Shown here in pieces: positions 28,319-45,486 of a stretch of DNA of 54,607 nucleotides. This DNA comes from Deltaproteobacteria bacterium. Its GTDB lineage: Bacteria; Desulfobacterota; Desulfobacteria; Desulfobacterales; B30-G6. The stretch is from assembly GCA_022340465.1 (NCBI GenBank), contig JAJDNW010000037.1, positions 1 through 54,607 of the forward strand. The letters run 5' to 3'. The translations under genes and the position numbers were made by a program. Each line of letters opens with the position of its first letter. The stretch's first letter is position 1. The notes under the pieces were generated by a model, which was given only the letters and a program-made list of their open reading frames with translations, was not told the DNA's origin and did no database searches.

Positions 28319-28347
28319 CAACTTCGGATCAGGGCTTGACCTTTCAC

Positions 28348-28389
28348 GGTTTACGGCATACGGCTCAGGGTGCAGGGCTCGAGGTGCAG
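28348..28389. repeat. degenerate 7-nt-period array
   Basis: Six heptamers in phase: GGTTTAC, GGCATAC, GGCTCAG, GGTGCAG, GGCTCGA, GGTGCAG. All begin GG and the sixth repeats the fourth. It begins 30 nt after the thioredoxin stop codon. Confidence 0.75.
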
Positions 28390-28418
28390 ACCGATCAACG
28401 CACGATGCTTTGAAAGTG

Positions 28419-28481
28419 CCTTGCGCCTTGGGCCTTGCGCCGCACGTTTTACGCTTCACACCTCACATTTCACGATTCAAG
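28419..28481. repeat. degenerate 7-nt-period array
   Basis: Nine heptamers in phase: CCTTGCG, CCTTGGG, CCTTGCG, CCGCACG, TTTTACG, CTTCACA, CCTCACA, TTTCACG, ATTCAAG. Neighbouring units resemble each other more than distant ones. It lies 29 nt after the preceding array and just before the end of the leftward gene at 28496. Confidence 0.75.
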
Positions 28482-31270: not shown

Positions 31271-31975
31271 ATGATTTTCGGCGCCATCAGAAAATTCAGC
31301 ACCATCGACTACCCGGGAAAACTGGCGTGCGTGCTGGGGACCAAGGGCTGCAACATGCACTGTCACTGGTGCCACAACTACAGCCTGTTATCTCACGAAT
31401 TTTCATCCGAATGCCAAATCATCTCCGAAAACGACGTCTTCGACTTTTTGCGGGACCGGTCGGGATTCATCGAAGGGGTGGTGATTTCAGGCGGTGAACC
31501 GACCCTGCACAAAGACCTGCCCGCTTTCTGCGGCAGGGTAAAAGCGATGGCATTCGACGTCAAACTGGACACCAACGGCACCCATCCGGAAATGGTCGCA
31601 CAACTCGTCCGGGAACGACTCGTCGACTACGTGGCCATGGACATCAAAACCGATTTCAAACAATATCCCTCCCTGACCAAAAAGGAATTTAAGCCGGAAA
31701 AAATCAGGCAGAGCATCGACCTTTTGCTGCAGGGGTCGATACCCTACGAATTCAGAACCACCTGTGTAAAGCCCTTTGTCAACACGACCAATATCGAACA
31801 CATCGGTGAGCTGATCCGGGGGGCCGCGCAATTATTCCTTCAGAAATTCGACCACACCCATGTTCAGGAGAACAGCAATTACGCGGCGAACCCTGCCGCC
31901 GGCTTCGATGATGCCGAAATGGAGGAGCTGCGCTGCAGGGTGGAGCCCTACGTTGCCGCGTGCAGCATCCGTTAG
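31271..31975 (+). CDS. nrdG: anaerobic ribonucleotide reductase activating protein
   Basis: Radical-SAM enzyme that generates the glycyl radical on NrdD. The 234-residue protein begins MIFGAIRKFSTIDYPGKLACVLGTKGC and has the [4Fe-4S] motif C-x3-C-x2-C as CNMHCHWC (27-34), then VVISGGEPTLHKDL. This longer form is typical of NrdG enzymes paired with non-enterobacterial NrdD. Start ATG follows AGAGG; an upstream ATG at 31208 lies inside nrdD and is rejected. Confidence 0.94.
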   Translation: MIFGAIRKFSTIDYPGKLACVLGTKGCNMHCHWCHNYSLLSHEFSSECQIISENDVFDFLRDRSGFIEGVVISGGEPTLHKDLPAFCGRVKAMAFDVKLDTNGTHPEMVAQLVRERLVDYVAMDIKTDFKQYPSLTKKEFKPEKIRQSIDLLLQGSIPYEFRTTCVKPFVNTTNIEHIGELIRGAAQLFLQKFDHTHVQENSNYAANPAAGFDDAEMEELRCRVEPYVAACSIR

Positions 31976-32142
31976 AGCGGTTTGCACCTCGATCCATACG
32001 CCCTGAGCCGTATTCCGTTTTTCATCATCAATCCCTTGGCCACAGCAGGCTATGCCTTGGCTTGATAGGGTGATTTGAAAAATAAACCCGCCATTCGCTC
32101 AGGGCATGCGGAACAGAATGCTGACAAACACCATAGCCCCCC

Positions 32143-36575: not shown

Positions 36576-36610
36576 CGTTTTATGTTTTACGCGTTACGTT
36601 TTACGCTAAG
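36576..36610. repeat. degenerate 7-nt-period array
   Basis: Five heptamers in phase: CGTTTTA, TGTTTTA, CGCGTTA, CGTTTTA, CGCTAAG. Units 1 and 4 are identical. It occupies the gap between tmcC and tmcB. Confidence 0.65.
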
Positions 36611-42712: not shown

Positions 42713-44449
42713 ATGACCGCAAAACCCTGGCATGGCCCCAAGTGGCCTGAAGGCGTCCCTCACGAAATCACCGGGTGGGACAAACCCTTACCTACACTCC
42801 TTGACGAAACCGCCGCACGATACCCGGATCTCGTTTACACGATTTTCAACGATGCCGGGCGCACCTATTCCCAGGTGAAAGACACGGCGGATCGCATCGC
42901 CAACTTCCTGGTATCCAAAGGCGTCAAAAAGGGCGATCGGGTAGCCATTTTTCTGCCAAACCTGCCCCACTATCCGGCTATCTTTTTCGGGATCCTGAAA
43001 GCCGGTGCCGTTTGTGTCACCTGCAATCCCATCTACACGGCCAACGAATTGAACTACCAGTTGGGGGATGCCGGCGCCAAGGCCGTTTTCTGCATGGATC
43101 ACCCCGAATTTTATCGCACAACGGTGGAAGCCATCAGGGGAACCGACGTGGAAACGGTCGTCATCTGCAGCGTAAAATCCTACCTGCCCCGGCTGAAAGG
43201 TTTTCTGGGCGGTCTGCTGGGCAAGATCCCCAAGGCGGAGAGCCACCAACCCGGGCACCTGTTGTTCGACGACGTTGTCGCCGCCGCATCCGGATCCGGG
43301 GCGCCCGCCGTGGAGATCGATCCTGTCGATGACCTGGCCCTGATCATCTACACCGGCGGAACCACCGGCCGGCCCAAGGGGGCCGCCCTGACCCATGCCA
43401 ACTTTTTCTATAACGTCATGGGGCTGAACGAATACGGCCGGCTGGTCCAGGAACCCGGCGGACGGCCGGAAAGGATCAGGGGCGGCGGTTTCAACACCTA
43501 CCTGGGCGTACTGCCCTGGTACCACAGCTTCGGCCTGACCTGCGCCATGCTGTCGGCCTGCGCCACGGGGAGCAAGCTTATCTGCGTCCCCGATCCGCGC
43601 GCCGGGGACCCGCCTTTCACCGAGGTGCTGAAACTTGTCCAGAAGCACCGGCCCACGTTGATGCCGGCCGTGCCCACCATCTTCGTGGCCTTCACCAACC
43701 ATCCCCTTCTGGGCCAGTTCGACCTGACCTCCCTCGTCGGGTGCTTTTCAGGCGGTGCCCCGCTCCCGCCGGAGGTCTGCAAGCAGTTCGAAGAAAAAAC
43801 CGGGGCCATTATTTTCGAAGGCTACGGCCTCAGCGAAACCGCCCCCGTGGCCACCGCCAACCCCACCAACCGGGAAAACCGTAAAATCGGCTCCATCGGG
43901 TTCCCCATTCCCTGCACGGATATCAAGATCGTGGACCTCGAAACCGGCTTGGAGGAGCTCCCCCAGGGAGAGGACGGCGAAATCGCCATCTCCGGCCCCC
44001 AGGTCATGCAGGGATACTGGAACAAACCCGAGGAAAACGAGGCGGTTTTCCGGGAAATCGACGGCAGCCGCTATTTCCTGACCGGGGACATCGGCCACAT
44101 CGACGAGGAGGGGTTCATCCTCATCACCGACCGCAAGAAGGACATGATCATCGTGGGCGGCTTCAATGTGTATCCGCGCGATGTGGAGGACATCCTCTTT
44201 ACCCACCCCAAGGTCGCCCTCGCGGCAGTGGTGGGCGTGCCGGATGCCAGAAGCGGCGAAATCGTCAAGGCCTTCATCCAGCTCAAGCCCGGGGAAACCG
44301 CCACGGAAGAGGAAATCATGGCCTTCTGCAAGGAAAACATGGCAGGGTATAAGCGGCCCAAGCAAATCGAGTTCCGCGAAGAAGTCCCGGTTTCCAACGT
44401 GGGCAAGGTCCTGCGCCGCGTGCTGCGGGACGAGGAATCCGGAAAATAG
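42713..44449 (+). CDS. long-chain acyl-CoA synthetase (FadD-like)
   Basis: ANL-superfamily ligase that activates a fatty or aromatic acid to its CoA thioester. The 578-residue protein has the AMP-binding motif IIYTGGTTGRPKGAALTH, the A5 motif EGYGLSETAPVAT, the A7/A8 region YFLTGDIGHIDEEGFILITDRKKDMI and the C-terminal NVGKVLRRVLR with the catalytic lysine. Chain-length preference cannot be read off. It has its own promoter and AGGAGG site. In sulfate reducers such ligases commonly feed fatty-acid oxidation, which is inference here. Confidence 0.9.
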   Translation: MTAKPWHGPKWPEGVPHEITGWDKPLPTLLDETAARYPDLVYTIFNDAGRTYSQVKDTADRIANFLVSKGVKKGDRVAIFLPNLPHYPAIFFGILKAGAVCVTCNPIYTANELNYQLGDAGAKAVFCMDHPEFYRTTVEAIRGTDVETVVICSVKSYLPRLKGFLGGLLGKIPKAESHQPGHLLFDDVVAAASGSGAPAVEIDPVDDLALIIYTGGTTGRPKGAALTHANFFYNVMGLNEYGRLVQEPGGRPERIRGGGFNTYLGVLPWYHSFGLTCAMLSACATGSKLICVPDPRAGDPPFTEVLKLVQKHRPTLMPAVPTIFVAFTNHPLLGQFDLTSLVGCFSGGAPLPPEVCKQFEEKTGAIIFEGYGLSETAPVATANPTNRENRKIGSIGFPIPCTDIKIVDLETGLEELPQGEDGEIAISGPQVMQGYWNKPEENEAVFREIDGSRYFLTGDIGHIDEEGFILITDRKKDMIIVGGFNVYPRDVEDILFTHPKVALAAVVGVPDARSGEIVKAFIQLKPGETATEEEIMAFCKENMAGYKRPKQIEFREEVPVSNVGKVLRRVLRDEESGK

Positions 44450-44459
44450 TCAAGAACAA

Positions 44460-44536
44460 GGTTTACGGTATACGGTATATGGTATACGGTGTACGGCATG
44501 AGGGTTAGGGTGTAAGGCGGTAGGTGGCGGGTGTCA
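44460..44536. repeat. 11-unit degenerate 7-nt-period array
   Basis: Eleven consecutive heptamers, every one beginning GG: GGTTTAC, GGTATAC, GGTATAT, GGTATAC, GGTGTAC, GGCATGA, GGGTTAG, GGTGTAA, GGCGGTA, GGTGGCG, GGTGTCA. Phase is kept over 77 nt without any insertion or deletion. It begins 10 nt after the FadD-like stop and ends before the map gene. Confidence 0.85.
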
Positions 44537-44595
44537 TGAACCGGTGACGATCCGTTCCCCGTCCCTTTCACCTCCCGTTCACACAACGGCTGATT

Positions 44596-45486
44596 ATGAT
44601 GAAAAACAAAGCTCCTAAAATAGGCCGGAACGACCCCTGCCCCTGCGGCAGCGGTTTGAAGTACAAGCGCTGTTGCGGCGACACGCAGGCCTCCTCGTCC
44701 GCGGACGTCGCAGCCATGTATGCCCGGAAGCATAATGTCCGGGTCAAACAGGGCAAAGATGTCGAGGCTATTCGCCGAGCCGGCCGGCTGGTGATGGAAA
44801 CGCTGGACATGGTCGAAGCAATGATCGCGCCCGGCCTGGTCACCGAAGAGATCAACACCCGGGTCCACGAATTTACCGTGAAGAACGGTGCCGTCCCCGC
44901 ACCGCTGAACTACCGGGGCTTTCCCAAAAGCGTCTGCGTATCCATCAACGACGTGATCTGCCACGGCATTCCGGGGCCCCACGCCCTGCAAGAGGGTGAT
45001 ATCGTCAACATCGACGTCACCACCATCCTCAACGGATACTACGCGGATGCCAACAAATCCTTTTTTGTGGGAAAGCCGTCGCCCGATGCCCGCAAGATTG
45101 TCGACGTCGCCCGCGAAAGCCTCAAAAGGGGTATTGCCATGGTCAAACCGGGCAACACCCTGGGCGATATCGGCTGGGCCATACAATCCTGGGCCGAGAG
45201 CCAGGAATGCTCGGTGGTCAGGGAATTCGTGGGTCACGGCGTGGGATTCGATTTTCACGAAGCGCCCCAGGTTCCCCACTTCGGCCGTCGTGGCCAGGGC
45301 CTTGCCCTCATTCCCGGCATGGTTTTTACCATCGAACCCATGATCAACCTGGGAGATAAAGCGCTGCGCATTCTGGAGGATAACTGGACCGCCGTCACCC
45401 GGGACGGATCCCTTTCGGCCCAATTCGAACAGACCCTCCTGGTAACCGACAACGGTTGTGAGAGCCTGACGCCCTACCCACTGTAA
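44596..45486 (+). CDS. map: methionine aminopeptidase type I with SEC-C motif
   Basis: Removes the N-terminal Met from nascent proteins. The 296-residue protein has an N-terminal SEC-C zinc motif, [18 protein letters not shown] (10-27), which in other proteins binds the ribosome or SecB-like partners. The catalytic pita-bread domain follows: [25 protein letters not shown] (metal-binding Asp), [12 protein letters not shown] (His), FTIEPMI (Glu) and the final Glu in [11 protein letters not shown]. No promoter or strong ribosome-binding site is seen directly upstream; the preceding gap is the heptamer array. Two adjacent ATGs begin the frame. Confidence 0.95.

Follow-up and report, generated by a model that had tools for sequence, protein, structure and literature searches.

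Layout of the ligase-map gap

Within the 54,607-nt stretch of DNA analysed here (the window), the gap between a fadD-like acyl-CoA ligase gene and a map gene holds a tandem array of seven-nucleotide units (Table 1). Positions 44460–44536, read in 7-mers, consist of 11 in-phase units, each beginning with GG and with no insertion or deletion: GGTTTAC GGTATAC GGTATAT GGTATAC GGTGTAC GGCATGA GGGTTAG GGTGTAA GGCGGTA GGTGGCG GGTGTCA. The original prediction had described this same arrangement, and the description is accurate for this copy of the array. Units 1–5 are probably its youngest part. Three GGG runs occur in the tract by reading, all within the diverged half. The prediction that the array is not a VNTR built of identical units, and not a coding heptad either, also stands, the tract lying between the two genes.

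Table 1. Features of the ligase-map locus and other heptad arrays of the window.
Feature	Position	Strand	Basis or remark
AMP-binding acyl-CoA ligase gene (fadD-like), upstream	42713–44449	+	PF00501 and PF13193
Intergenic gap with array, 146 nt	44450–44595		No counterpart between the orthologous genes of G002 and G003
Array units 1–5, near-identical	44460–44494	+	Lag-7 analysis; Tandem Repeats Finder (44460–44496, period 7)
Stretch of units 1–8 with ungapped copy at G000:C109:2190–2243	44461–44514	+	83% identity over 54 nt
Array units 6–11, diverged, in phase, all GG-initial	44495–44536	+	Lag-7 identity 20/35; 4/5000 shuffles as high
Methionine aminopeptidase-like gene (map), downstream; Peptidase_M24 with N-terminal SEC-C motif	44596–45486	+	PF00557 and PF02810
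Second heptad array, part of a dispersed family	28416–28489		Copies alignable over 57–156 nt
Third, short heptad array (TATGTTT TACGCGT TACGTTT TACG)	36581–36605	+	Repeat/lag scan

The lag-7 identity of the tract is 47/70, far above that of dinucleotide-preserving shuffles, as had been expected of it (mean 20.9, sd 3.9; 0/5000 as high, a count that, like the other shuffle counts for this tract, is uncorrected for its choice by eye from 54.6 kb). Identity was 39/63 at lag 14 and 39/56 at lag 21, and did not exceed 0.32 at any remaining lag from 2 to 24. For units 6–11 alone, the lag-7 identity given in Table 1 compares with a shuffle mean of 12.1 (sd 2.4). GG in the same phase was seen in all 11 units in none of 5000 shuffles, and in all six of units 6–11 in 3 of 5000. 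No other stretch of this length in the window has so high a lag-7 identity; the runner-up (46/70, near 28416) is another array.

Two other candidates for the tract were considered. A promoter array, suggested by the resemblance of GGTATAC to a −10 box, was ruled out, there being no promoter-like site in 44300–44700. A structured RNA was likewise rejected, with no Rfam matches at E up to 1 in 44300–44800 and a folding z of −0.37 for the gap relative to shuffles. We found no hairpin or inverted partner at the target beyond chance (121 of 200 shuffles were equal or better).

The orthologous junction in related genomes

Orthologs were sought in two further genomes of the genus and one further genome of the family (G001, G002, and G003), and the ligase and map genes adjoin in all three. 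The ligase stop codon overlaps the map start codon in G002 (TAATG), as do stop and start in G003 (ATGA), and neither junction has a gap or an array. G001 has a ligase-map gap of 109 nt (boundaries set by hand) that contains no GGTATAC units. Among short periods, 8 is the strongest in this gap (29/48), followed by 7 (24/49; 9 of 1000 shuffles as high), and by reading it has the 9-mer AGGCGGTAG in common with the target. The period of 8 can be seen in CCACAGAGCCACAGAG, which this gap (L056) contains. The fadD-map gap, whose alignment in related genomes the original prediction had proposed as a check, thus varies among relatives, being absent in two genomes and of other content in the third. The absence of the array at orthologous junctions suggests that it is a lineage-specific insert or expansion in a seemingly once-tight gene pair. 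In G002, an unlike heptad array occurs just beyond the far end of the map gene.

Heptad arrays across the genome

The genome that carries the window (G000) was sampled through the window and 22 further stretches, which were picked by contig number and not by content (431,492 bases in total), and lag-k segments were scored by one fixed scheme for lags 4–22 at thresholds of 13 and 18. Lag 7 gave 19 segments at threshold 13 and seven at threshold 18, compared with 0–2 and none, respectively, at lags divisible by neither 3 nor 7. When the two segments of the window are left aside, lag 7 retains 17 and 5 segments. These genome-wide counts are unaffected by the choice of the target by eye. At threshold 13, lags 6, 9, 12, 15, and 18 gave 8, 5, 4, 2, and 5 segments, which are presumably coding repeats, and lags 14 and 21 gave seven each.

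The arrays of this genome have units that are unlike one another (GGTATAC, GTTTCAC, AGCTCAT, GCCTTGC, CGAACAT, CACCAAA, and others). Overlap with open reading frames was at most 7% for 13 of the 19 arrays, 30–31% for three, and 61–100% for three, according to crude ORF calls by which 88% of the sampled DNA is coding. Five of 26 arrays from this genome have a stem matched by none of 60 shuffles.

Arrays in relatives and other phyla

Four consecutive TACGNNN units (at most one mismatch) were found in 20 of 96 related genomes, the genome of the window counted. The reversed control (four GCATNNN units) was also frequent in some relatives, namely G017 (189 and 86 matches) and G044 (144 and 118), as well as G009 and G076, which suggests further heptad families there. 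A sample of the order took one stretch from each of 38 further genomes (458,567 bases in all, with one of the stretches as short as 101), with contig numbers fixed in advance and some genomes already known as array carriers from the TACGNNN search. At threshold 14 it contained 11 lag-7 segments in 6 of the 38 stretches, versus 0–2 at those lags from 4 to 30 that neither 3 nor 7 divides. At threshold 13, three lag-7 segments were found in G001 (68 kb), two in G013 (100 kb), none in G017 (24 kb), G023 (40 kb), or G043 (31 kb), and two in G003 (42 kb), where lag 8 gave three. Arrays were not seen in all genomes. A 275-nt array in G048 (L033 1921–2195) consists mostly of CCCATAG and CCCAAAG, in runs and alternating.

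Three consecutive GGTNTAC units occur in at least 116 stretches of a species-genome collection; 80 titles among the matches listed include Bacteroidota, Acidobacteria, Chloroflexi, Planctomycetes, Cyanobacteria, Aminicenantes, and Actinobacteria. The pattern is also present in six viral contigs. We scanned 116 of these at least 116 loci outside the matches themselves (798,346 bases), the loci having been chosen for already possessing one heptad array. Lag 7 gave 120 segments and lag 8 gave 26, while lags not divisible by 3, 7, or 8 gave 0–9 and lags 6, 12, and 18 gave 36, 38, and 33. Another lag-7 segment was present in 61 of the 116 loci. For the 80 loci among the matches listed, there were 96 lag-7 segments, with a further segment in 46 of the 80. 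The period of 8 in the G001 gap, together with the position of lag 8 as the next strongest non-coding-like lag across phyla, suggests that 8 nt may be another favored unit length.

Length differences between dispersed copies

With the target as query, 21 places were found in its own genome at E up to 1, the target itself counted and at least three of them, by eye, being chance coding matches. The best copy, that of units 1–8 on contig C109 (Table 1), scores 36 in its register, as against 23 for the best shift by one unit, and is therefore probably related to the target by descent.

One dispersed family is composed of heptads throughout, its copies being 73–87% identical and alignable over 37–156 nt. 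The family has the core GACCGCTCAACGCATGATGCTTTGAAATTGCC and can be read in 7-mers for most of its length, and its copies differ by whole units. The members are found at 28344–28479 and 31962–32018 of the window, at L026 12437–12660 and 3945–4100, L019 5821–6067, and L015 5847–6066, and in L137 and L136.

The 37 alignments of dispersed array copies contain 28 gaps, which are not independent, several coming from one family. Eighteen of the 28 are multiples of 7 (fourteen of 7 nt, three of 14, and one of 21); the others are eight of 1 nt, one of 8, and one of 24. Of the 80 gaps in 213 alignments of other repeats, one has a length divisible by 7. The whole-unit differences in length are between dispersed copies; no single locus, the target included, was seen to change in unit number. 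Dispersal of whole blocks occurs alongside local growth. The premise from which the original prediction had reasoned, that slippage would leave indels out of phase, fails here. Copies of arrays elsewhere in the genome are not free of indels, and of the 28 found between them 18 are 7, 14, or 21 nt in length.

A separate dispersed family forms hairpins in which each arm carries heptads, as in AGCTCATAGCTCATAG...GCATGCCATGAGCTATGAG (L127 13355–13415 and 7529–7603, L129 2214–2303, L126 9967–10036, and L013 6600–6665). Inverted pairs of heptad arrays were also seen by eye in other genomes (e.g., L031, L032, L047, and L308).

Likeness between units decays with distance

In the eight arrays of at least 63 nt from the unselected sample of the target genome, identity between units one to eight apart was 0.61, 0.50, 0.45, 0.35, 0.31, 0.31, 0.26, and 0.30, approaching the off-phase background of 0.23. 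Five arrays from selected stretches of the same genome show the same decay. Across phyla (80 loci among the matches listed), identity decays from 0.77 to 0.56, the units being more uniform. The target itself has a shallow decay (0.67, 0.62, 0.70, 0.55, and 0.52 at distances of one to five units), which counts against a copying model, and its neighbor likeness relative to permuted unit order is weaker (p=0.02).

Neighbors were more alike than under permuted unit order (p<0.05) in 13 of 13 arrays of at least nine units from this genome, in 18 of 20 from relatives, and in 112 of 132 from 116 of the at least 116 cross-phylum loci, the arrays having been detected by a lag-7 score that itself favors neighbor likeness. 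The result is retained in arrays far above threshold (4/4 in this genome, 8/10 in relatives, and 74/85 in 116 of the at least 116 cross-phylum loci). Transitions make up 0.48 of the differences between neighbors in the arrays of this genome, as compared with 0.31 off phase. This excess is small in relatives (0.369 versus 0.317) and absent across phyla (0.408 versus 0.401; 80 loci among the matches listed), which likewise counts against a copying model.

Exact tandem duplications of 7 nt were close to expectation outside arrays, with 6 versus 4.5 expected in the target genome and 10 versus 6.5 in the order sample, and no raised rate of a first 7-nt duplication outside arrays was found in either sample, a result that speaks against slippage in its simplest form. 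With arrays included, the counts were 20 versus 4.2 and 30 versus 6.5. Outside arrays there was a small excess of duplications of 8 nt (3 versus 0.8 in the target genome; 7 versus 2.3 in the order) and of 9 nt (4 versus 0.6; 5 versus 1.6). These values suggest that seven is special for the growth or persistence of arrays, and not visibly for their birth. In 83 arrays at 80 of the at least 116 cross-phylum loci, the longer tail beside the GGTNTAC core was the left one in 37 cases and the right one in 45, with mean lengths of 3.8 units on the left and 6.1 on the right. These counts are descriptive, and we draw no polarity of growth from them.

Origin of the array

The decay of likeness, the whole-unit gaps, and the transition-rich differences in the target genome together fit local copying, loss of units, and point mutation. 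We consider it likely that the target is one of many degenerate, mainly intergenic heptanucleotide arrays, formed by the copying of units and their subsequent mutation, and is not a spaced protein-binding site. Arrays of this kind would originate in gene gaps, or reach them, as repeat DNA, and whole 7-nt units would then be gained and lost by local duplication or deletion. The copying step may be replication slippage or template switching between adjacent units. Point mutation would cause content to drift, such that neighbors stay alike and distant units become unlike while the 7-nt register is kept. The best reading of the target is accordingly a lineage-specific insert of heptanucleotide-repeat DNA that alters by whole units and decays by point mutation, and we infer that no selected function attaches to this site.

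An alternative that we regard as unlikely is that the array came from a non-autonomous mobile element, dispersed in fragments or whole by a transposase acting from elsewhere in the genome, with the heptads as relics of the element's structure. The alignable dispersed heptad family, the copy of units 1–8 on C109, the existence of insert-free junctions, and, by reading, the start of several copies of another subfamily near AAAACGG would all suit such an element. However, the flanks of the target are not, by eye, common to its copies, no stem beyond chance is present at the target, and other genomes and phyla show the 7-nt period in arrays whose units are unlike those of the target. As for the decayed end of an insertion element, which had been raised for this tract, a transposase domain was found in none of the four flanking proteins scanned.

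Quite improbable, in our judgment, is a cooperative platform on which a protein reads one short motif per 7 bp, the spacing being selected and most bases free. The Omega repressor of pSM19035 binds unspaced 7-bp heptads. The presence of GG in all 11 units is in keeping with a platform, and tandem heptanucleotides are predicted to be sites of a global regulator in Geobacter metallireducens (PMC2700814). PF07764 (Omega_Repress) had no match in the target genome, but the control set was equally without a match. An operator of the omega type would have one motif common to all units, whereas likeness in the arrays of this genome falls to near background with distance, and the unit families within the genome are widely unlike. 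In addition, two orthologous junctions are without the array, and no promoter-like site lies near it. We reject selection for spacing as the main reading on account of the decay with distance, which would not be expected if a protein read one motif in every unit. The original prediction had offered a choice between a young array and selected spacing; youth survives in part, in the near-identity of units 1–5, and selected spacing is disfavored by the decay and by the whole-unit gaps.

Chance, by which a G-rich stretch happens to read in 7-mers, is suggested by the picking of the tract by eye from 54.6 kb and the weakness of units 6–11 alone, but is already refuted by the shuffles (0/5000) and by the lag-7 excess in DNA not chosen for it.

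Returning to unit copying followed by mutation, we tentatively raise a broader possibility, which we consider less likely than not by a wide margin: a copying process shared by bacteria of many phyla may have an intrinsic 7-nt step that is set by an enzyme (through polymerase contact, or a template-switching or repair activity) and not by sequence. Such a process would act on existing short repeats, would tolerate mismatch at about 40% of positions between neighbors, and would leave long chains of drifting 7-mers in gene gaps, some of them arranged in inverted pairs.

Relation to known heptanucleotide repeats

The tandem heptanucleotides of the cyanobacterium Calothrix are named STRR. Three distinct units are mentioned for them, in the same tandem 7-nt form as here (cited in PMC4692102). 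Mrazek et al. (2007) described long simple sequence repeats of heptanucleotides, for which slippage was proposed, with 7 nt as the contact length of the polymerase (cited in PMC4679880 and PMC4692102). Like these prokaryotic arrays, those described here are composed of 7-nt tandem units with no spacer. They are also mainly intergenic and present at many loci (no more than 7% ORF overlap for 13 of the 19 arrays; 19 segments in 431 kb), and change in whole-unit number was seen between dispersed copies (18 of 28 gaps). Unlike the repeats of Mrazek et al., as known through the citing papers, neighbors in the target genome differ at about 40% of positions, and there are many unit families per genome. 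As near-identical units are confined to units 1–5 of the target and neighbor identity in its genome is 0.61, we call the array a variant of heptanucleotide simple repeats and not a plain member.

In Xanthomonas and Nostoc, Rehm et al. (2015) reported repeats of GGGAATC and GGGGA(C/T)T (PMC4692102). In common with the arrays described here, these form genome-wide arrays in gaps, some heterogeneous and some in inverted pairs, and they also vary in length and sequence between relatives and lie beside all classes of genes. They differ in that one G-rich, quadruplex-forming unit was studied per genome, whereas here there are several families, most without G-tracts. A Xanthomonas-type G-quadruplex would call for at least three G in each of four units, and the target, with three GGG runs, falls short of this.

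The TAACTGA direct repeats of marine Beggiatoaceae, Cyanobacteria, and Bacteroidetes (MacGregor 2015, PMC4679880) are likewise heptamers in gene gaps and sporadic across phyla; they have one fixed unit, mostly located just 5' of start codons in the main genome studied, in contrast to the drifting units here. Geobacter metallireducens also has multicopy tandem heptanucleotides, four or five per element and with one class drawn on opposite strands, but these have a set number of units and a consensus for each class (GGGACCG; MTYCTGA) (PMC2700814). As far as we found, functions for these genome-wide heptamer arrays have been proposed and not established (PMC4692102, PMC4679880, and PMC2700814). 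In searches of open-access papers, we found no account of degenerate drifting heptad arrays or of the decay of their likeness. As far as we found, uniform heptanucleotide repeats are already known and the degenerate drifting form is little described.

Implications

Degenerate heptad arrays recur in the gene-gap DNA of this genome, and also in its order and in several phyla, with units that are often too unlike for ordinary simple-repeat finders. Their form advises caution against taking phased 7-mers to be protein-binding sites. Taken with the whole-unit gaps, the decay with distance opens to testing the old question of the bacterial preference for repeats of seven bases; the arrays resemble natural records of copying in steps of 7 nt.
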